Below are positions 53,992 to 64,000 of a DNA stretch of 64,000 bases, piece by piece. The position numbers and the translations under genes are program-made. The first letter of the stretch is position 1. Every line of letters starts with the position of its first letter. The notes below the pieces were generated by a model. The model worked only from the letters and a program-made list of their open reading frames with translations, was not told the origin of the DNA and did no database searches. The stretch is taken from NCBI RefSeq assembly GCF_030408355.1, contig NZ_CP046606.1, positions 868,001-932,000 on the forward strand, in the 5' to 3' direction. The DNA is from Corynebacterium afermentans subsp. afermentans (GTDB taxonomy: Bacteria; Actinomycetota; Actinomycetes; Mycobacteriales; Mycobacteriaceae).

Positions 53992-54133
53992 GGCGCACAC
54001 ACTATGAAGCCCGTCGACATCACCGACCCGGCAATCGAACACACGGTCGAATTCTGGTTGGCTGCCAGGGGTGATATGCCATTGCGGAAAATATTTGCCA
54101 CATTGCCAAATCAGACCACCCCACCTGGCGATG

Positions 54134-54139
54134 TACCCT
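54134..54139 (+). promoter_or_regulatory. -10 hexamer of the MFS-nucleoside hydrolase operon
   Basis: TACCCT ends 8 nt before ATG 54148 and no ribosome-binding site lies between, consistent with a leaderless start of the operon. Confidence 0.45.
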
Positions 54140-54147
54140 AGCCAGCA

Positions 54148-55356
54148 ATGAACGCCGACAATCCAACTCAACAGCAGACGCCGCGCACCCAGCCGAAGAT
54201 CCCGCGCACGATCTGGGTGCTTGTCGGCGCCGCGTTCATCATCGCCCTCGGCTACGGGCTCATCGCCCCAGTGCTCCCGCAGTTCGCCGGCAGCTTCGGC
54301 GTGTCCATGGCGGCCGCCGGAGCGGTCACCTCCATTTTCGCACTGGCGCGCCTTCTGGGGGCTCCGGGGGCCGGCCGGCTCGTCGATAGGCTTGGCTCCC
54401 GCCCGATCTACCTCACCGGCTTGCTTATCGTTGCCGCCTCCACGTTCTTCGTGGCCTTCGCGCAGGCATATTGGCAGATCCTCGCCCTGCGGTTTATCGC
54501 CGGGTTCGGCTCCACCATGTTCACTCTGTCGGCGCAGGCGTTGATCGTGCGCGTGACGCACCCGTCCATCCGCGGGCGTGCCAACGCGCTGTACGCCTCC
54601 GCGTTTCTGGTCGGCAACGTCGTCGGCCCGGTCATCGGCGCCGCGTTGTCTTTCCTGGGTTTCCGCGCACCGTTTGTCATTTACGGCATCGCGGTGGCGG
54701 GCGCGGCGGTTGCCGTCGGCGCGCTGACCCAGCCAAAGCCGGGCTCCGAGCCGCTGCCCGCAGCGAAGCCGAAGATGCGCGTGCGCCAGGCGTGGCAGAG
54801 CTCCACCTACAAGGCGCTGCTGGCCGCCGGTTTTACCAACGGCTTTGTCAACATGGGCTCGCGAGTGGCCATCTTGCCGCTGTTCGCTGCGGCCGTGTTT
54901 GAGCGCGGGGGAGCGGCCGCCGGGTTTGCGCTGACCGCCTTCGCGTTCGGCATGGCCGTGACTCTGCAGTTCTCCGGCCGCCTCGCCGACAGCCTCGGCC
55001 GCCGTCCGCTGGTCGCCGCGGGTCTTGCCACCTCGGGCGTGTTCACGGCACTCCTTGGCGGTGCCACCAGTTTCTGGCCGCTCGTGCTACTCTCCGCCGC
55101 CGCAGGCATCGGCGCGGGCCTGATGAGCCCCGCCACCCAGGCCACGCTCGCGGACATCATCGGCAACGAGCGCTCCGGCGGTACAGTGCTGTCCACGTAT
55201 CAAATGACGCAGGATGCCGGCTCGATCCTCGCGCCGGTGCTGCTCGGCACGGTCGCGGAGGCGGCGGGCTTCCAGGCCGCGTTCGGCATGTGCGGGGCGG
55301 TGTGCGCCGCCACGTTAATCATTTGGCTTGTCGCCGGAAAGGAAACAAAACCGTGA
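54148..55356 (+). CDS. MFS transporter, DHA1-like (12 TM)
   Basis: 402 residues with twelve helices. GLVGAAF-like IWVLVGAAFIIALGYGLIAPVLPQFAGSFG is TM1, GRLVDRLGSRPIYLTGL the A-motif, RFIAGFGSTMFTLSAQALIV TM4, and GRLADSLGRRPLVAAGL the repeat of the A-motif in the second half. The stop overlaps the nucleoside hydrolase start (GTGA). This link suggests transport of nucleosides or a product of their breakdown, but export of another compound cannot be excluded. Confidence 0.82.
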   Translation: MNADNPTQQQTPRTQPKIPRTIWVLVGAAFIIALGYGLIAPVLPQFAGSFGVSMAAAGAVTSIFALARLLGAPGAGRLVDRLGSRPIYLTGLLIVAASTFFVAFAQAYWQILALRFIAGFGSTMFTLSAQALIVRVTHPSIRGRANALYASAFLVGNVVGPVIGAALSFLGFRAPFVIYGIAVAGAAVAVGALTQPKPGSEPLPAAKPKMRVRQAWQSSTYKALLAAGFTNGFVNMGSRVAILPLFAAAVFERGGAAAGFALTAFAFGMAVTLQFSGRLADSLGRRPLVAAGLATSGVFTALLGGATSFWPLVLLSAAAGIGAGLMSPATQATLADIIGNERSGGTVLSTYQMTQDAGSILAPVLLGTVAEAAGFQAAFGMCGAVCAATLIIWLVAGKETKP

Positions 55357-56357
55357 GAGTCATCCTGGATTGCGACCCCGGCATCGACGACACCTACGCA
55401 ATCATCTTCCTCACCGCCGCGGCCCACGCGGGGCTCATAGAGCTCGATTGCCTCACGACGACCTCCGGCAACGTCCCCGCCGAACAATGCGCCCAGAACG
55501 GCGCCTGGATCCTGGGACTGAGCGGTCTGCCCATCATCTCGCTGGCCGCGGGCCTGCCCGGGCCGCTCGAGGTGGAGCTGACCACCACGCCGGAAACCCA
55601 CGGGGAGACCGGCTTGGGCTACGCCACCGCGCCCGAGCGCCACGTGGAGCACGACTGGGACGCGCTGTGGATCGACTCCATCGAGCGCGGCACCGAGGAT
55701 TTGCACCTCATCGTCACGGGGCCTTTGACCAACCTGGCCGCCTTTGCCCACGCCCACCCGGAGCATTTTCAAAAGCTCAAGCACATCACCGTGATGGGCG
55801 GAGCAGTGCATTACCCGGGCAACACCACGCCCAGCGCGGAGTGGAACTTCTGGGTGGACCCGCACGCCGCCGCCGACGTGTTCGCCATGACACCGGTGCC
55901 GATCACACTGTGCTCGCTCGGCGTGACAGAGCGGATGTTGCTCGGTCCGGAGGCGTTGGCGGAGTTCGTCGATAAGCTTGGCGGCTCCCCGCTCGCCGAG
56001 CATCTCGAGGCGATCACTCGGTTCTACTTCGAGTTCCACGAAGACGTCGGCGAGGGCTATCAGGCTCAGATCCACGACTTGCTCACCGTGCTCATCGCTC
56101 TTGACCTGGTGGATTACCAGGCGACCGAGACCACCGTCGACGTGGAGGCCGACTCCGAGCTCATGCGCGGCACCTCGGTGGCGGATCTGCGTGGTATTTG
56201 GGAGCGCGACCCGAACGCGCGCCTGGTCACCGACGTCACCGACGAGGCCATCACCGCCGCCTGGGAACGCTTCGACTGGGCCTGCGAGGTGCACGCCAAG
56301 GCCGCCGCCGGCGACGCCGAGATTGTGGAGCTGCGCCACCTGCGCGCCGACGACTAG
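55353..56357 (+). CDS. Nucleoside hydrolase (IunH/RihB family)
   Basis: 334 residues. ILDCDPGIDDTYAI is the calcium-binding DxDxGxDD motif, VTGPLTNLAAFAH and ITVMGGAVHYPGNTTPSAEWNFWVDPHAA the conserved ribose-site motifs, and HDLLTVLIAL carries the leaving-group side. It splits ribonucleosides into base and ribose. AAAGGAAA precedes GTG 55353, which overlaps the MFS stop. It precedes an ECF transporter operon on the same strand, which suggests that a free base or nucleoside is the transported molecule. Confidence 0.9.
   Translation: MRVILDCDPGIDDTYAIIFLTAAAHAGLIELDCLTTTSGNVPAEQCAQNGAWILGLSGLPIISLAAGLPGPLEVELTTTPETHGETGLGYATAPERHVEHDWDALWIDSIERGTEDLHLIVTGPLTNLAAFAHAHPEHFQKLKHITVMGGAVHYPGNTTPSAEWNFWVDPHAAADVFAMTPVPITLCSLGVTERMLLGPEALAEFVDKLGGSPLAEHLEAITRFYFEFHEDVGEGYQAQIHDLLTVLIALDLVDYQATETTVDVEADSELMRGTSVADLRGIWERDPNARLVTDVTDEAITAAWERFDWACEVHAKAAAGDAEIVELRHLRADD
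55967..55977 (-). repeat. Ninth perfect copy of the 11-base word
   Basis: CGTCGATAAGC inside the nucleoside hydrolase gene (Val-Asp-Lys codons). One-base variants are also present at 26742, 28211, 29422, 31145, 36072, 37920, 41671, 54381 and 62781. Confidence 0.7.
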
Positions 56358-56377
56358 GCCGGGAAAACTCCCCCTGC

Positions 56378-56465
56378 TACACTTTCCGAACCGATAGCCC
56401 AGCCGAGGTGACATAGGCGAGAAGGGCTGCACCTTCCCGTTTTCCGCGCACCACTCGGAGCACCC
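56378..56465 (+). promoter_or_regulatory. Structured leader with pseudoknot-type sequestration of the ECF S Shine-Dalgarno
   Basis: TACACT (56378-56383) is a possible internal promoter -10 box. The leader can form helix AGCCC (56396-56400) with GGGCT (56424-56428). Its loop contains CCGAG (56403-56407), which can pair with CTCGG (56454-56458) overlapping the GGAG ribosome-binding site (56457-56460) of the next gene. A small hairpin GAAGG-GCTGCA-CCTTC lies between. This geometry would allow ligand- or RNA-controlled translation. No known riboswitch consensus matches convincingly. Confidence 0.45.
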
Positions 56466-57266
56466 ATGTCACACGCAACCACCCCGGCCGCGCAGGCCGC
56501 GCAGAAGGCCGAATGGACCCCCGCCCGCCGCGCCCTCGCCGTCGCAGGCACCCTGTTTATCGCCGCCACCTGGCTCTACTTCGTCCTCGTCCACCCGGCG
56601 GATTGGGACCAGGTCACCGGCTCCGGCCAGGGCATCGCGCTGCTTGCCGGCTACGGCATCGGCACCATCTTGCTGCTGGCCGCGGTGATCCCCGTGCTGC
56701 CGGCGCGCACGCTGGGTCTGATCCCGATCGCGATCATCATCAACTCTGTCGTTGGCGAGATCGTCGGTTCCATCGGCCTGCCGCTGTACCTGGACTCCGT
56801 GGGCACCGTGCTCGTCGCGGCCTTGGCAGGCCCGGTCGCGGGCATGGCCACCGGCGCGCTGAACAACGTCGTGTGGGGCCTGCTCAACCCGGCGGCGCTG
56901 CCGTTCGCCGCGGGTGCGGCGCTCGTCGGTTGGCTGGCCGGCGTGTTCATCCACCGTTTCAACGCGCTGCGCAACATCGCCACCGTGATCGGTTTCGGCC
57001 TGGTGCTCGGCGTTGTCGGCGGCGTGGTCGCAGCCCCTGTGGCCGCATACGTCTACGGCGGCACCGCTGGTGTGGGCACCGGCGCGCTGGTCAGCCTGTT
57101 CCGCGAGATGGGCGGCTCGCTCATCGCATCCGTGACCACCCAGGCGTTCATCTCCGACCCGGTGGACAAGGTCATTGTCATGCTGGTGGCGTACTTCACG
57201 GTCAAGGCGCTGCCCAAGCGCACTGTCGCCACCTTCGCCCCGCAGAGCAACCCGCAGAGCAAGTAA
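56466..57266 (+). CDS. ECF transporter S component of unknown substrate
   Basis: 266 residues with about six membrane helices: ALAVAGTLFIAATWLYFVLVHP, IALLAGYGIGTILLLAAVIPVL, LGLIPIAIIINSVVGEIVGS, and PLYLDSVGTVLVAALAGPVAGMATGALNNVVWGLLNPAALPFA, a pattern typical of S components (LDSVGT..LAGP..G). The C-terminal helices end before a short tail. It follows the nucleoside hydrolase on the same strand and is followed by T and A components, so the substrate is probably a base or nucleoside. Its leader may be regulated (see the leader entry). GGAG precedes the ATG. Confidence 0.8.
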   Translation: MSHATTPAAQAAQKAEWTPARRALAVAGTLFIAATWLYFVLVHPADWDQVTGSGQGIALLAGYGIGTILLLAAVIPVLPARTLGLIPIAIIINSVVGEIVGSIGLPLYLDSVGTVLVAALAGPVAGMATGALNNVVWGLLNPAALPFAAGAALVGWLAGVFIHRFNALRNIATVIGFGLVLGVVGGVVAAPVAAYVYGGTAGVGTGALVSLFREMGGSLIASVTTQAFISDPVDKVIVMLVAYFTVKALPKRTVATFAPQSNPQSK

Positions 57267-57281
57267 CCCCAAGCAACCCCA

Positions 57282-57970
57282 GTGTCCCAGCCACACACCC
57301 GCCTGAACCCGCTGACCGCTTTGGCCGTCGGCGCGTCCGGCTGGATCCTGGCGCTGGGGCTGAATACTCCGCGGGCCTCGCTCGCCATCATCGCTGTGGC
57401 CCTCGCCGCCGGCACCTGTCGCACCCGCAACCCGTCCGTCGTGGCGGCCACAGTAATCATCGCCGCGCCCGTCGCCGCGTCGATGGTGCTCATCCACGCG
57501 CCCTACGGCGAGCACAAAATCGCCCCGCTGCTCACCTCCGACGGGCTCGCGGATGCCGCGCACCTCACCGCTCGTTTCACCGCGTTGGTGGCGTGCCTGC
57601 TCGCCGCCGTGGCGTGGACTCGCACGCCGGATCTGGCCAAGGCCCTGCAGAGCACAAAGGGCGGCAACCGCATCGGCTACATCGCCGGCACCACGCTGCA
57701 GCTCGGCCCCCAGGGCGCGCACCGCGCACGCATCACGCGCGACGCCAACCGCCTCAAGCAGCGACCGATCAAAGCCAAAACCGTCGTCCCGCACCTGATC
57801 ATGCCCGTACTCACGGAGCTGCTCACCCAGGCCGGCGCCCGCGGCCAGGCCCTGGAGACTGCAGGCTACGACCTCACCGGCCCCCGCACCGTCCTGCGCC
57901 CGGTCCACGACAGCCCCGCCCAGCGCGCCGCCCGCATCCTTGTCCCGCTTACCTGCGTGGCGGTGGTCCT

Positions 57971-57980
<10 letters not shown>
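57282..57980 (+). CDS. ECF transporter T component
   Basis: 232 residues. LNPLTALAVGASGWILALGL and LAIIAVALAAGTC are N-terminal helices; the coupling region GYIAGTTLQLGPQGAHRARITRDANRLKQR and LLTQAGARGQALETAGYD carries the ARG-type motif that touches the ATPase. The end is a membrane helix (AARILVPLTCVAVVLWI). GTG 57282 follows the S gene by 15 bp and the stop overlaps the ATPase start by 10 nt. Together with 56466 and 57971 it is a complete ECF transporter. Confidence 0.85.
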
Positions 57981-59131
<1,151 letters not shown>

Positions 59132-59339
59132 CCGCAGTACCCTGCGTTTCGAGGTCGTTAGTGCCCGGCCAATGGGACCCAAAAACGGAGGCTGCTGACG
59201 GCGGAGATGCTGTGACATGGACCAGCACGCCGTCTCCTCAACCTTCCGGGCGACCCGCAATAACCCGAGGAACCTCAGCAGAAGAAAAGCCGCGAACCGG
59301 CCTGATTCTTCAAGGAGAAGCTGGCTTTGAAGGGGAGAC
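59132..59339. other. Junction between the ECF operon and the low-GC helicase gene
   Basis: 208 bp without a gene. The G+C content falls across it from that of the ECF operon towards that of the helicase. I see no direct repeats, tRNA or integrase remnants in it; the left end of the presumed transferred piece is probably here, but it is not sharply marked. Confidence 0.5.
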
Positions 59340-62300
59340 TTACTGCTCCAAATGACGTTTGCCTTCCGAATCTTCTCTGACCATGTGGCCAGGGTTTCGG
59401 TGGCGTTCCGCCTTCATGCCGTCATCAAACGGATCCTGGATGCTCGAGCGCTTGTTTGTGGTGAGTGCCTTGTACAGCGGGGCACGGACAGGTTCGTCTA
59501 ATCCCAACCTCATGACCACCACGTCGAGCAATTCATCTTTGTTTCCAGTCATGTGCCGCTCTTCGGCGTGCCTGACTTCAGCTTGCCCGAGGTAGTAAAA
59601 CTCCAAGCCGTCTGCGTCTTCTCGCTTCACAAAGAGGTGGAGGTCGGCGGAGCCATCCAAGATTGGCTGGAGTTCGTTGCTCTTCAGCGTCCGATTGCTC
59701 TTGGAGAACCATTGCATTGTGGATTGGTCAATGAATGTGTCGTCGTATCGGTGGCTCGCCAGGACATCGGCGTCCTTGTGGTAGGTGACGAAGATCGGGC
59801 AAGTGTTGGTGTTTGAATCCACCGCGTACCCGTAGATCGTGGACTCCCTATTGTGATGCCAGTTGAGGAGTCTTGCTGCGTCTTTTCGGGTGTACGTTTT
59901 CCCTCGGACGAACATGTCGCTCTGGCGGTACTGGCGCCGGTTGACGAGGAGGCCAGTTTCGATGAGGTCATCAATGTGGGAGCGGAAACTGACTTCCGGG
60001 TTCGGGTGTTGCTCGTCGTAGGAGAAGTACAACTCTGAGAACCGCTCACCGAGCTGAAAACCGCTGCTTGTGCGGACAGCGAGTGGACTACCCCCATAGC
60101 GTTGGGCAGCAGCCTTCGTGAACCAGTCCAGGTTCAAAACGAGCTCTACCGACTGCATGAGGTTAGCCGAGGAATCAAGCTCCGGTGAGTACTCCTCAAT
60201 TGCGGTCTTGAAGTCGTGTGCGGAAAGCGTCCCTTTAGGTCCGCGGCGCACAAGTTCGGAGAGAAGAAGAAGTTCCTGCGGTCGTTTTCCGTTGAGCAGC
60301 TCCGCGGCGATGAGGGAGAGGAAGCCGTCTTCTTCGCGGGAGGGCGCAGAGTTAACTTCCTTCAATTTGTACAAAAGCGACCAGTAGTTTCGGGTGTGTT
60401 GATCGGTTGCGCACAGCACAGACGGATCCATGGACTCGTGGTAAAGGAAATCGACGAGCCTCGGAATCCGGCCGAGCCGGTACTTTAACTCGGCGATGGC
60501 TTCGCGCTTCGCTTTAACTCCGGTGATACGGGCCTTTTGCAGAGACTCGATTACTCGAGCGGCGGAGACCTTGTCGAAGCTCACCGTGGAAGACCCGGCT
60601 TTTGGGCGAGGGTCGTTGACGTCGTCGAGAATCTTTGGCTTGCGGCCAGTCTTGTTTCCGGTGAGAGCAATAGCAATGAGGTAGTTGTTCGCGTAGTTAC
60701 CAATAAAATCGATGACGCGCAGCGAGTGCTTGTCGGCGGACTTTCGCAACCCGCGTCCTAGTTGTTGCGTGAAAATAATTGAGGATTCAGTGCTTCGGAG
60801 CAGGACGATCACATTCACCGAGGGGATGTCGATTCCCTCGTTGAAAATGTCCACCGTGAAGATGTAATCGAGCTCGCCATTTTCCAGCTTCGAAACGACC
60901 GACTCTCGCTGTTCAATCGTGTCCGCTCCCGAGAGACTCCTCGTTCTCAACGGACGGCCGTGAGCGGTGCGCGAGGAGAGTGCTTCCGCGAGGATGCGGG
61001 ATTCTTCGTTACTACTGCAGAACACTAGGCCTTTCGTACCTTCTGCGAACGAGTATTTCTGCAGTGCATCAACGATGTGCTCGACGCGACTTTCCGCAAC
61101 CAGATCTTTGAGCTTTGACTTGTCTCCGATTGATCCCTGCGCCGATTCGTAGTCGGCAATGCCGTAGTAGTCGAAGGGGACGAGCATCCGGTTTTCAAGG
61201 GCGCCTTCAAGACGAATCTCGTACGGAACGTTGTATCCAAAGAGTTCGAAGACGTTAAACCCATCCGTACGCTCCGGGGTGGCGGTCAAACCTAGCGTGA
61301 AGTTGGGGCGGAAGTGGTTCAGGATCGACTGGTACGACTTGGCCCCGGAACGGTGAACTTCGTCGATGATGACCAGATCGAACTGGAGCGGCGAGATTGA
61401 CGCCAGATTCTCTTTCCGTGAAAGAGACTGAACCGTTGCAAACACCAAATCTTTGTCTAACTCTCGCCGCGCTCCCACGAAGAAACCGATTTGTGAGTCG
61501 TCGACTTCCAACACCTTGGCAAACTCTTGAGCTGCCTTTTTCAAGATCTGCTCACGGTGCACGATGAAAAGCGTTTTTGAAGGCTTCATCTGGCGCGTAG
61601 CCAACGCTGCCAAAATAGTCTTTCCCGTGCCGGTTGCTGAGATGATCAATGCGCGTTTTTCGCCGGAGTCGACCACACTCTGCAGCTGCTCAAGCGCCTC
61701 CACCTGCATCAGGTTTGGAAGAATCTTCTCGCCTTCCGGAGAAACCTCCATCGGTTGAGTTTCCGTGAAAACGATTGTGCGGTTGGCCCTCTTCTGCTCG
61801 TACTCGCTGATCCATTCCTCGGTCAGTGGTACTGCCTTTTCGAGGTGCTTGTCGACCCCACTTTGAAGCTGTGACGCAATGTTGCCGTTTCGGTGCGAGG
61901 AAACTCGGATGTTCCACTCGTGGTTTTCCATCAGGGCGTAGCGCGTGAGGTTTGAGCTGCCGACGAGCGCGGTGACATGATCGCCGTGATTGAAGATGTA
62001 GCCCTTGGCATGGTGGGCGTATTCAGACATAACGTAGACATCGACGTTTTCCAGAGTTAGTAGCTCGCGCAATGCAGCTGGCTCGTTGAAGTCCTGGTAC
62101 GAGGACGTGATGATCGTGCCCTTGCCTTGAAACTCAACGAGTTGCTGTTTGAGCGCGCCGATACCGCCGACCGTCACGAATGCAACGGAGAAGACGTAAC
62201 TATCAGCGAACTCAAGTTCGTTCTTGAGCGCCTCGTACATGGTGTTTGAGTCACCGTTGGTGATGAGCTCCGGGTTTTCTTGCTTGTTGGCAAGAACGGC

Positions 62301-62357
62301 TTCGTCGATGAAGCCGTACTCAAGGTCGCGTTGCAGCGAGGAAAGCAAAGGATCCAT
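59340..62357 (-). CDS. PLD-nuclease / SF2 helicase / DUF3427 protein
   Basis: 1005 residues. Residues 1-150 form a phospholipase D-like nuclease half-domain (HAKGYIF, H116 and K118; GSSNLT at 133-138). Residues about 220-560 are a superfamily II helicase (ATGTGKT 241-247, DEVH 332-335, TATPE 358-362, IDIPSVNVIV, QLGRGLR). The rest matches DUF3427-type C-terminal regions. It could unwind and cut nucleic acid, as in antiviral or repair helicase-nucleases. Sampled lines run near 47-52 percent G+C against about 68 percent for ldh next door, a sign of transfer. Start ATG overlaps the Nudix stop (TAATG). Confidence 0.85.
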   Translation of the reverse strand: MDPLLSSLQRDLEYGFIDEAVLANKQENPELITNGDSNTMYEALKNELEFADSYVFSVAFVTVGGIGALKQQLVEFQGKGTIITSSYQDFNEPAALRELLTLENVDVYVMSEYAHHAKGYIFNHGDHVTALVGSSNLTRYALMENHEWNIRVSSHRNGNIASQLQSGVDKHLEKAVPLTEEWISEYEQKRANRTIVFTETQPMEVSPEGEKILPNLMQVEALEQLQSVVDSGEKRALIISATGTGKTILAALATRQMKPSKTLFIVHREQILKKAAQEFAKVLEVDDSQIGFFVGARRELDKDLVFATVQSLSRKENLASISPLQFDLVIIDEVHRSGAKSYQSILNHFRPNFTLGLTATPERTDGFNVFELFGYNVPYEIRLEGALENRMLVPFDYYGIADYESAQGSIGDKSKLKDLVAESRVEHIVDALQKYSFAEGTKGLVFCSSNEESRILAEALSSRTAHGRPLRTRSLSGADTIEQRESVVSKLENGELDYIFTVDIFNEGIDIPSVNVIVLLRSTESSIIFTQQLGRGLRKSADKHSLRVIDFIGNYANNYLIAIALTGNKTGRKPKILDDVNDPRPKAGSSTVSFDKVSAARVIESLQKARITGVKAKREAIAELKYRLGRIPRLVDFLYHESMDPSVLCATDQHTRNYWSLLYKLKEVNSAPSREEDGFLSLIAAELLNGKRPQELLLLSELVRRGPKGTLSAHDFKTAIEEYSPELDSSANLMQSVELVLNLDWFTKAAAQRYGGSPLAVRTSSGFQLGERFSELYFSYDEQHPNPEVSFRSHIDDLIETGLLVNRRQYRQSDMFVRGKTYTRKDAARLLNWHHNRESTIYGYAVDSNTNTCPIFVTYHKDADVLASHRYDDTFIDQSTMQWFSKSNRTLKSNELQPILDGSADLHLFVKREDADGLEFYYLGQAEVRHAEERHMTGNKDELLDVVVMRLGLDEPVRAPLYKALTTNKRSSIQDPFDDGMKAERHRNPGHMVREDSEGKRHLEQ

Positions 62358-62746
62358 TATTGCTGCTGTACTCGTTCAACAGTCTCGATGTCGGCTGGTG
62401 CCCATTCAAGTTGGTGCAGCTCAGCTTTAGGCACCCAGCGGATTTCCTGGTGCTCGGAAAGCTTCGGGGTGCCGGAGCGAAGCGTGCAGTAGTACGTGGT
62501 GAGGTTGATGACTACAGAGTTGGTTTCGTGCCGGCTCGTCACGATCCGATCCAATACATCAACCTCAACACTGAGTTCCTCGAAAAGCTCACGCTGCAGG
62601 GCCTGTTCCGGAGTCTCGCCGGGTTCAATCTTTCCGCCGGGAAACTCCCACAATCCGCTCATCGATCGGCCCAATCCTCGCTGTGCAGCAAACACAAGTT
62701 CGCCGTCGAGGATCACTGCTCCAACCACATCGATGTTTTTGGCCAT
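62357..62746 (-). CDS. Nudix hydrolase (MutT-like)
   Basis: 129 residues. The Nudix box GGKIEPGETPEQALQRELFEEL is complete (GX5EX7REUXEEXGU pattern) and the start AKNIDVVGAVILDGELVFAAQRG is like 8-oxo-dGTP diphosphatases. Its TAA overlaps the helicase ATG, so the two are cotranslated. A small nucleotide hydrolase coupled to a nuclease-helicase suggests clearance of modified or signal nucleotides. It may also be just MutT-type sanitation. -10 box TAGGAT lies 6 nt before the ATG. Confidence 0.85.
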   Translation of the reverse strand: MAKNIDVVGAVILDGELVFAAQRGLGRSMSGLWEFPGGKIEPGETPEQALQRELFEELSVEVDVLDRIVTSRHETNSVVINLTTYYCTLRSGTPKLSEHQEIRWVPKAELHQLEWAPADIETVERVQQQ

Positions 62747-62752
62747 GGTGAC

Positions 62753-62782
62753 ATCCTAGACGTCAGCCGGGCGAAGCTGACG
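62753..62782 (-). promoter_or_regulatory. Promoter and hairpin between ldh and the Nudix gene
   Basis: TAGGAT (62753-62758 on the minus strand) lies 6 nt before the Nudix start. Immediately upstream a perfect 7-bp stem CGTCAGC / GCTGACG (62761-62782, 8-nt loop) could be the ldh terminator or an operator of the pair. A variant of the recurring word (CGTCGACAAGC) follows at 62781-62791. Confidence 0.45.
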
Positions 62783-62799
62783 TCGACAAGCAAAGGCCC

Positions 62800-63759
62800 C
62801 TAGAACTCGGCGTGGTCGATGACCTCGCGCAGGGCCTTGGCGGAGTAGCGGAACTTCTCCAGCTCGTCGGAGTCGAGGCGCAGTTCGACAACGTTGCGTA
62901 CGCCGCTGCGGTTGAGGACGGTGGGGGTGCCGATGTAGAGGTCCTCGAGCCCGTACTCGCCTTCGAGTAGCGCGGAGACGGGCAGGACCACGTCCTCGTT
63001 GCGCAGGACCGCGCGCGTGATGCGGGCGAGCGCGTTGCCGATGCCGAAGGCGGTGTTGCCCTTGCGCTTGATGATGTCGTAGGCGGCGTCGCGGGTGCGG
63101 ATGAACATCTCGTCCATCTGGGTGTAGATGTCCGGGTTGGTCTCCGCCTCGGTCTCCAGCATGGCGCGCAGCGGCACACCGCCGACGGAGCCGGAGGAGA
63201 ACACGGGCAGTTCGGTGTCGCCGTGCTCGCCGATGATGTGGGTGTGCACGGCGGATGGGGCGATGTCGAAGTGCAGGCCGAGGTTGTGGCGCCAGCGGGC
63301 AGTGTCCAGCACGGTGCCGGAGCCGATGACCTGGTTGGACGGCAGGCCGGTCTGCTTCCAGGTGATGTAGGACAGCACATCCACGGGGTTGGTGGCCACG
63401 ACGTAGATGCCGTTGAAGCCGTTGGCCATGACCTCGGAGTTGATGGACTGGAAAATCTTGGCGTTGCGGGCGATCAGGTCGATGCGGGTCTCGCCGTCGC
63501 GCTGCGCCACGCCCGCGCAGTTGACCACCATGGCGGCGTCGCGGCAGTCCTCGTAGGTGCCCACCGTGACGTCCATGTGGTGGCCCGAGAACGGGATGGC
63601 GTGGTTGAGGTCCTCAACCTGGGCCCAGACGAGGTCCTCGTTGAGGTCGATGATGGCCAGGTGGTCCGCCAGGCCCTGGTTGACAATTGCGTATGCGTAG
63701 GCGGTGCCGACAGCGCCGGCGCCGATAAGGACGATCTTGTTGCCATGAGTCACGGTCAT
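62800..63759 (-). CDS. ldh: L-lactate dehydrogenase
   Basis: 319 residues. GAGAVGTAYAYAIVNQG is the NAD-binding motif, NPVDVLSYITWK and GSGTVLDTARWRHNLGLHFDI the substrate/cofactor motifs, and IIGEHGDTELPVFSSG holds the catalytic His with its partner Asp. It interconverts pyruvate and lactate with NADH. ATG 63759 is the start of homology; CACACT 7 nt upstream fits a leaderless mRNA. The Nudix-helicase pair lies downstream on the same strand but has a different base composition. Confidence 0.93.
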   Translation of the reverse strand: MTVTHGNKIVLIGAGAVGTAYAYAIVNQGLADHLAIIDLNEDLVWAQVEDLNHAIPFSGHHMDVTVGTYEDCRDAAMVVNCAGVAQRDGETRIDLIARNAKIFQSINSEVMANGFNGIYVVATNPVDVLSYITWKQTGLPSNQVIGSGTVLDTARWRHNLGLHFDIAPSAVHTHIIGEHGDTELPVFSSGSVGGVPLRAMLETEAETNPDIYTQMDEMFIRTRDAAYDIIKRKGNTAFGIGNALARITRAVLRNEDVVLPVSALLEGEYGLEDLYIGTPTVLNRSGVRNVVELRLDSDELEKFRYSAKALREVIDHAEF

Positions 63760-63816
63760 ACGACCAAGTGTGGCAGAGCCGCCGGGATCGCGCGCGGTGG
63801 GGGTTGGGCGCAAAAA

Positions 63817-63852
63817 CACAGCCGCCGCAGCGAGCGGGCTGCGGCGGCTGTG
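63817..63852 (-). terminator. Rho-independent terminator of the next gene
   Basis: A 14-bp perfect stem CACAGCCGCCGCAG / CTGCGGCGGCTGTG (63817-63830 with 63839-63852) is followed on the minus strand by five T. It terminates the membrane-protein gene that enters from the right and isolates it from ldh. Confidence 0.8.
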
Positions 63853-63876
63853 CGGGGGAGGGGAGGTTGCGCGGGA

Positions 63877-64000
63877 TTATGCCTTCGCGTACTCCTCCTG
63901 GGACTGTGCAACCACCTGTGGGCGTCCAGTGGCGAAGTACAGCACCGTCATGATCACCGTGAACGCCACGCCGATGCCGAGCGCGAGGCGGAAGTCCGGC
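63877..64000 (-). CDS. C-terminal end of a membrane protein (gene runs off the right edge)
   Basis: About 41 residues ending at the TAA at 63877: DFRLALGIGVAFTVIMTVLYFATG is a membrane helix, followed by the short hydrophilic tail RPQVVAQSQEEYAKA. It resembles the last helix and cytosolic tail of a secondary transporter, but too little is present to name a family. Confidence 0.5.
   Translation of the reverse strand, partial: PDFRLALGIGVAFTVIMTVLYFATGRPQVVAQSQEEYAKA

Follow-up and report, generated by a model that had tools for sequence, protein, structure and literature searches.

Organisation of the locus

In a 64,000-nucleotide stretch of the genome of Corynebacterium afermentans subsp. 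afermentans (contig NZ_CP046606.1, positions 868,001 to 932,000; hereafter the window), two open reading frames (ORFs) on the reverse strand form a compact module. The first (62357–62746) encodes a NudG-like Nudix hydrolase of 129 amino acids and the second (59340–62357) a protein of 1005 amino acids that, as judged by sequence, is almost certainly a SauUSI-type Type IV modification-dependent restriction endonuclease (REase). The analysis confirmed both the position of the two ORFs and their one-base TAATG overlap, as given in a preliminary description of this DNA. The module is bordered on the left by an ABC ATPase gene (57971–59131, forward strand) and on the right by ldh (62800–63819, reverse strand; Ldh_1_N/C), which are kept beside differing cargoes in relatives. 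The host genome is a single contig of 2,375,453 bp. The system is known, and the window pair is a further member of it, with a partner gene that has been under-studied so far.

Relationship of the large protein to SauUSI

Pfam resolves the large protein into the three parts that the preliminary description had recognised, all encoded on the reverse strand: a PLD nuclease domain (PLDc_2, 35 bits, residues 82–166; 61860–62114), an SF2 helicase-like ATPase (residues 214–539; 60741–61718) made up of ResIII (214–363, 133.6 bits) and Helicase_C (430–539, 53.1 bits), and a DUF3427 region (residues 683–966, 247.9 bits; 59460–60311). The PADLOC family mREase_IV (PDLC03658) matches residues 1–966 with 695 bits. 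In the PDB, SauUSI of S. aureus (7clg) matches residues 2–966 with 679 bits, while the runner-up, RadD, scores 73 bits. The domain order is common to both enzymes over nearly the whole length of the window protein, which differs in having 1005 rather than 953 amino acids and a longer C-terminus.

Residues important to SauUSI are largely kept. The PLD H-x-K motif (HAK, 116–118), already picked out in the preliminary description, places H116 and K118 opposite SauUSI H119 and K121, and an H119A mutation makes SauUSI nuclease-dead (PMC7913695). The C-terminal part of the DUF3427 region corresponds to the SRA-fold 5-methylcytosine (5mC) reader of SauUSI, where four of the six named pocket residues are identical (Tyr844, Phe856, Asp873 and Trp883, equivalent to SauUSI Tyr831, Phe841, Asp858 and Trp868) and two differ (SauUSI Ile842 is replaced by Val857 and Met829 by Tyr842).

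SauUSI recognises S-5mC-NGS, with either 5mC or 5-hydroxymethylcytosine, and combines its SRA-fold reader with PLD-mediated dimerisation, ATP-driven translocation and shredding of the DNA (PMC7913695). It requires just ATP or dATP plus modified DNA (PMC3874153, PMC7913695), the single cloned gene is reported to be active in E. coli, and methylated lambda and plasmid DNA are restricted without a partner (PMC3874153). In S. aureus the enzyme is described as one of the main obstacles to horizontal gene transfer (PMC7913695). The terms mutT, nudix and operon are absent from the main text of that paper (PMC7913695). A Nudix gene does lie directly upstream of SauUSI in an S. aureus record, as in the window; the SauUSI frame is interrupted in the record inspected.

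A NudG-like Nudix hydrolase

The small protein matches the PADLOC family PDC-S07 (PDLC04899) over residues 1–128 with 169.8 bits, with no difference from the family found, and Pfam NUDIX with 76.7 bits. Because its score against the curated NCBIfam NudG equivalog (100 bits) lies under the cut-off of 156, we call it NudG-like rather than NudG; two MutT models score 88 and 86 bits, again below cut-off (TIGR00586: 86.1 against 97.9). The best PDB match is 5x1x (113.7 bits), a chain that agrees at 130 of 130 positions with the Nudix whose gene immediately precedes that of SauUSI in the S. aureus record. Catalytic residues E53, E56 and E57 are kept in all 126 aligned family members of at least 100 amino acids. 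Asp119 occupies the column of MutT Asn119, where Asp is found in 117 of the 123 members with a letter there. E. coli NudG (Orf135) shares both the catalytic Glu residues and the Asp. In the printed alignments an APAD/VPAD motif is common to the window Nudix, 2rrk and 5zrc. MutT position 78, which we take to be base-binding, gave no alignment to Phe and was not used.

NudG and mycobacterial MutT2 hydrolyse 5-methyl-dCTP (PMC3744803, PMC5158307, PMC10742078), with a kcat/Km for NudG of 3 x 10^5 (PMC3744803) or 1.3 x 10^6 per M per s (PMC5158307), whereas MutT is weak on 5-methyl-dCTP and strong on 8-oxo-dGTP (PMC3744803). Unlike the window Nudix, neither NudG nor MutT2 has a known tie to restriction genes. 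MutT homologues have been noted as small proteins beside SauUSI homologues in Streptococcus (a 2020 paper, PMC7641849, Fig. 9 legend), and our search of open PMC papers showed no proposed role for a SauUSI-adjacent Nudix among the entries listed.

As to the family name, we take PDC-S07 to stand for a phage defence candidate and presume that it originates in the preprint of Payne et al. 2024. The name is used in PMC12988326 and PMC13356809, both of which cite Payne et al. 2024.

Conservation of the gene pair

Across 242 genomes of the genus, mREase_IV (E 1e-60) was matched in 103 and PDC-S07 (E 1e-15) in 128. Both families were also matched in Corynebacterium glutamicum, one of the named control genomes. 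Counting how often the two genes occur as a pair, as the preliminary description had proposed, showed that in 100 of the 103 mREase_IV genomes a PDC-S07 match precedes the REase gene in the same orientation; in one genome it lies downstream and in two it is not adjacent. Strong mREase_IV matches have the Nudix 3–189 nucleotides upstream in 58 of 60 cases. Weak matches have it upstream in 42 of 43, at distances of 357–440 nucleotides in 33, 526–532 in three, 924–936 in five and 1746 in one, these gaps being counted from a profile match whose start is well inside the gene; the 1746-nucleotide gap contains transposase-like ORFs. Three of the weak matches scored as a second PADLOC family, PDLC03659, and one (genome G062; handles beginning with G and L denote our genomes and loci) is a broken SauUSI-type gene.

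The pairing extends beyond the genus. Among the best 80 of 535 confirmed loci in Bacillota (genus names served to assign the phylum), 55 have the Nudix directly upstream; at two it follows immediately on the same strand, and at six it lies downstream in convergent orientation. In a plasmid collection with 21 matches, all four loci inspected carry a Nudix upstream and on the strand of the REase gene, Hymenobacter (Bacteroidota) included. A sample of 296 genomes from the host phylum gave 26 matches, and at each of the three SauUSI-type loci other than the window a Nudix is present, upstream in one case and convergent in the remaining two. Nudix–REase pairing thus occurs in three phyla, and a nucleotide-pool enzyme adjoins most SauUSI relatives examined. 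In G202 the two proteins are fused in frame as an ORF of 1158 amino acids (L030:1438–4914, L248:7761–11237). Such a fusion is apparently confined to one lineage, since only four of 1183 candidate long proteins carry a Nudix of this kind and two of the four, near-identical clusters of the protein database, are the G202 fusion, at 99–100% identity.

Three further observations concern individual loci. On a L. plantarum plasmid a SauUSI-type gene is followed immediately by a MazG-like pyrophosphohydrolase (PF12643; L055:6877–7197), a second nucleotide-pool enzyme from a family to which human DCTPP1 presumably belongs. Truncated or split SauUSI-type genes are present at L047 (G178), L048 (G100) and L054 (G062), and in G178 and G100 the Nudix is still in place beside the damaged gene. 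The genomes of G178 and G062 carry C5-methyltransferases elsewhere.

Exchange of the module between ABC and ldh

In relatives, the interval from the ABC gene to ldh (window 57971–63819; L052, L190, L202, L205, L217 and L243) is a cargo slot that holds either Type IV modules or C5-methyltransferase restriction-modification (R-M) systems. The same pair occupies it in G095 (REase 90.5%, Nudix 90.7% and flanking proteins 90–98% identical) and in G236 (81% and 78%, with flanks of 85–93%). In G052 the slot carries a PDLC03659 enzyme and a Nudix 57% identical to that of the window, between ldh and ABC proteins of 91% identity. In G091, G061, G099 and G145 it is filled by a C5-methyltransferase and a type II-like partner; the partner is NgoMIV-type by Pfam in G091, that of G099 clusters with it, and those of G061 and G145 are taken as NaeI-like from their resemblance to a protein of L037 (Pfam: NaeI). 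In G061 a SIR2-domain gene (SIR2_2, 66 bits; L190:4551–5936) lies beside the C5 R-M system.

Alignment by blastn of window positions 54001–64000 with the G091 locus (L202) defines the exchanged segment. Homology ends at 59091 and restarts at 62767, with flanks of 88.6% and 90.8% nucleotide identity, and the cassette (59092–62766) therefore consists of the Nudix and REase genes. Against G052 the alignment restarts at 62598, inside the Nudix gene, and crossovers may take place at the 5' ends that Nudix genes have in common. The PDLC03659 family resembles the window module in its PLD–SF2–DUF3427 order, in its occupation of the same slot in G052 and in the Nudix found upstream of it in the genus. 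It differs in being 28–34% identical to the window enzyme over the aligned parts and in having a longer N-terminus; moreover, in the phylum sample none of 22 weak relatives, not each assigned to PDLC03659, has a Nudix adjacent within the short loci fetched.

The surroundings of the slot are widely shared, with 32 of 41 sampled REase loci (a sample that includes the split gene of G001) carrying at least one gene family of the window neighbourhood. The preliminary description had proposed comparing the locus in close relatives to find an empty site. None was found: a scan around the expected position in G088 and G232, which have neither system, showed no ldh beside the ABC gene, and the replacement of the module seen by alignment serves in its stead. 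The module is exchanged as a cassette between two conserved genes, and the slot illustrates how such modules are swapped.

The base composition agrees with a transferred origin. The 3.4-kb module has a G+C content of 54.6%, against a mean of 66.9% and a minimum of 63.4% for 3.4-kb segments elsewhere in the 64 kb (n = 1119, overlapping, all upstream of the module). Third-position values are 68% for the REase gene, 62% for the Nudix gene and 92% for ldh, whose overall G+C is 65.9%. The low G+C noted in the preliminary description is thus real, although its hand counts of 47–52% were somewhat low for a REase gene of 54.5%. Since the REase gene is lower in G+C than its flanks in all 39 loci measured, low G+C is general to such modules and by itself no proof of recent arrival here. 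Same-slot replacement in close relatives, low G+C, the PADLOC matches and R-M systems as alternative occupants together support the proposal of a transferred defence module. Relatives do not all hold the pair at this place with host-like composition, and its neighbours are not confined to repair genes.

A predicted role for the Nudix hydrolase in self-protection

By analogy with SauUSI, the large protein would dimerise through its PLD domains and recognise 5-methyl- or 5-hydroxymethyl-cytosine by means of the SRA-like domain at its C-terminus, and ATP would drive its movement on DNA, so that a methylated invader is shredded. Shredding should free modified dCMP which, once re-phosphorylated, could be incorporated into the host chromosome, and the chromosome would thereby acquire the very mark that its own nuclease attacks. 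The co-translated Nudix may close this recycling route by hydrolysis of 5-methyl-dCTP, and possibly also of 5-hydroxymethyl-dCTP, to monophosphates. We tentatively favour this reading of a Type IV locus with a Nudix that protects the cell by 5-methyl-dCTP hydrolysis; both the substrate and the protective role are inferred. Four considerations favour it: the trigger of the partner enzyme is 5mC; the residue pattern and the nearest characterised relatives of the Nudix are those of dCTP-analogue hydrolases; SauUSI restricts without a Nudix, so that attack does not need one, which fits an accessory rather than an attacking role; and a Type IV enzyme, unlike an R-M system, comes without a methyltransferase as antidote to mark self. 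If correct, the Nudix would be a metabolic antidote that explains how the cell survives while shredding methylated DNA, and the module would exemplify a restriction system that protects itself metabolically, since no methyltransferase can do so. It is possible, but more doubtful, that restriction of the SauUSI type commonly relies on two components, the shredder and a dedicated 5-methyl-dCTP hydrolase that serves as an immunity factor against recycled nucleotides.

The C. afermentans genome has no C5-methyltransferase (PF00145) match, in a search whose control was positive in 10 of 14 named genomes; this fits a Type IV enzyme but is weak evidence, as PF00145 is absent from 141 of the 242 genus genomes as well. 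A C5-methyltransferase is present in 14 of 103 genomes with the REase and 87 of 139 without it (Fisher p = 4e-15, kinship ignored), whereas an N6-methyltransferase control gave 56 of 103 and 86 of 139 (p = 0.29). Biochemical exclusion of the two enzymes was considered as the cause and has been largely withdrawn in favour of competition for the slot, the more so as two further samples did not reproduce the depletion. Among genomes with five contigs or fewer, a C5-methyltransferase lies in the shared slot in 30 of 47 REase-less genomes that have one and outside it in 21 of 47; among the ten corresponding REase genomes these numbers are 1 and 9. A loose definition of the slot was used for this count, requiring one or more of 19 gene families of the neighbourhood to lie within 7 kb, and 64 of 67 merged methyltransferase places were taken (G013:C2, G117:C2 and G173 were left out). 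Ten genus genomes combine a strong REase match with a C5-methyltransferase, so coexistence is possible, and of 50 Bacillota loci submitted from the 80, 12 of the 48 searchable REase genomes have a C5-methyltransferase match. At L035 (G112) and L036 (G173) a C5-methyltransferase lies 1.2–2.5 kb from the Type IV mREase, an apparently self-targeting combination.

Several observations weigh against self-protection. SauUSI works alone, although the single-gene test is silent on long-term self-damage (PMC3874153). Among the 80 Bacillota loci, no Nudix was seen at 17, one of them not judgeable, and the Nudix is therefore not obligatory. NudG also accepts CTP, dCTP and 2-OH-dATP, the last assigned on genetic grounds (PMC5158307), and an E. 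coli record annotates it as a 5-hydroxy-CTP diphosphatase. Avoidance of C5-methyltransferases is strong in the genus only and apparently mostly positional: there is no depletion in the 296 phylum genomes (8 of 26 against 73 of 270), and in the 191 genomes of the Pediococcus G537 family the difference is not significant (11 of 55 against 37 of 136, p = 0.36). Finally, in nine REase-less genomes, or ten with a G101 fragment, a Nudix of at least 120 bits lies within 3.3 kb of a C5-methyltransferase, which could represent a different partnership.

The Nudix copies beside C5 R-M systems, whose partners at the loci inspected are NaeI, NgoMIV and a GIY-YIG enzyme, may mainly be footprints of replaced Type IV modules, with some real partnerships among them. 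G143, with a C5 R-M system, and G001, with a REase split in two ORFs, have common flanks and a near-identical Nudix start. Probable remnants of replacement are also seen in G058, which keeps a REase tail of 116 amino acids, and in G061, which keeps a decayed Nudix.

Alternatively, the Nudix could be a general pool cleaner that acts on 8-oxo-dGTP, 2-OH-dATP or 5-OH-dCTP and limits mutation at times of damage, or a passenger retained as a recombination anchor of the cassette. The MutT-like fold and the strength of MutT on 8-oxo-dGTP (PMC3744803) are consistent with the former, and the restart of the G052 alignment within the Nudix gene with the latter. We consider this unlikely, since 114 of 242 genus genomes have no PDC-S07 match at E 1e-15, which rules out a housekeeping MutT in the sense of a core gene, since the occurrence of the pair in several phyla, together with a fusion, exceeds what a local anchor would explain, and since MutT Asn119 is Asp in 117 of 123 members.

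Somewhat less likely still is a second attacking arm, in which the Nudix drains the 5-hydroxymethyl-dCTP or 5-methyl-dCTP pool of a phage while the nuclease cuts modified DNA. The Nudix family is among the defence candidates of PADLOC, T-even phages incorporate hydroxymethylcytosine from a converted dCTP pool (PMC3874153), and the same residues that suggest self-protection point to a dCTP-analogue hydrolase; against this, methylated lambda and plasmid DNA are restricted by SauUSI in the absence of any Nudix, and the present data, with no search aimed at it, connect the module to no phage that has a modified dCTP pool. The preliminary description had guessed that the Nudix might remove a modified deoxynucleoside triphosphate, which is also our present best guess, with self-protection fitting at least as well as phage attack.

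Regulation of the nuclease, by contact or by removal of an activating nucleotide, would suit a pair with translational coupling and one instance of fusion. It is nevertheless highly improbable given that SauUSI is active without a partner on ATP or dATP and modified DNA (PMC3874153, PMC7913695) and that the cassette comprises two genes only, with no signal-making gene. A new, unnamed kind of nuclease-helicase defence system, as the preliminary description implied in finding no named match and for which the architecture alone speaks, is ruled out by the SauUSI match over residues 2–966, the alignment of key residues and the PADLOC assignment of both genes, mREase_IV for the large and PDC-S07 for the small.

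Signals upstream of the Nudix gene

The promoter that the preliminary description had placed between ldh and the Nudix start is plausible but unproved. A sigma-70 consensus scan upstream of the Nudix gene found no promoter, yet TAGGAT or TAGTAT stands six nucleotides before the Nudix ATG in all four related loci aligned. TAGGAT of the window (62753–62758, reverse strand) is a putative -10 element of a leaderless-type promoter. Between ldh and the Nudix gene lies a hairpin (62759–62784) with arms GACGTCAGC/GCTGACGTC in the window. Three relatives have the same hairpin with arms GGCAGC/GCTGCC, both arms having changed together, and G091, which lacks the module, retains the ldh-side arm only.

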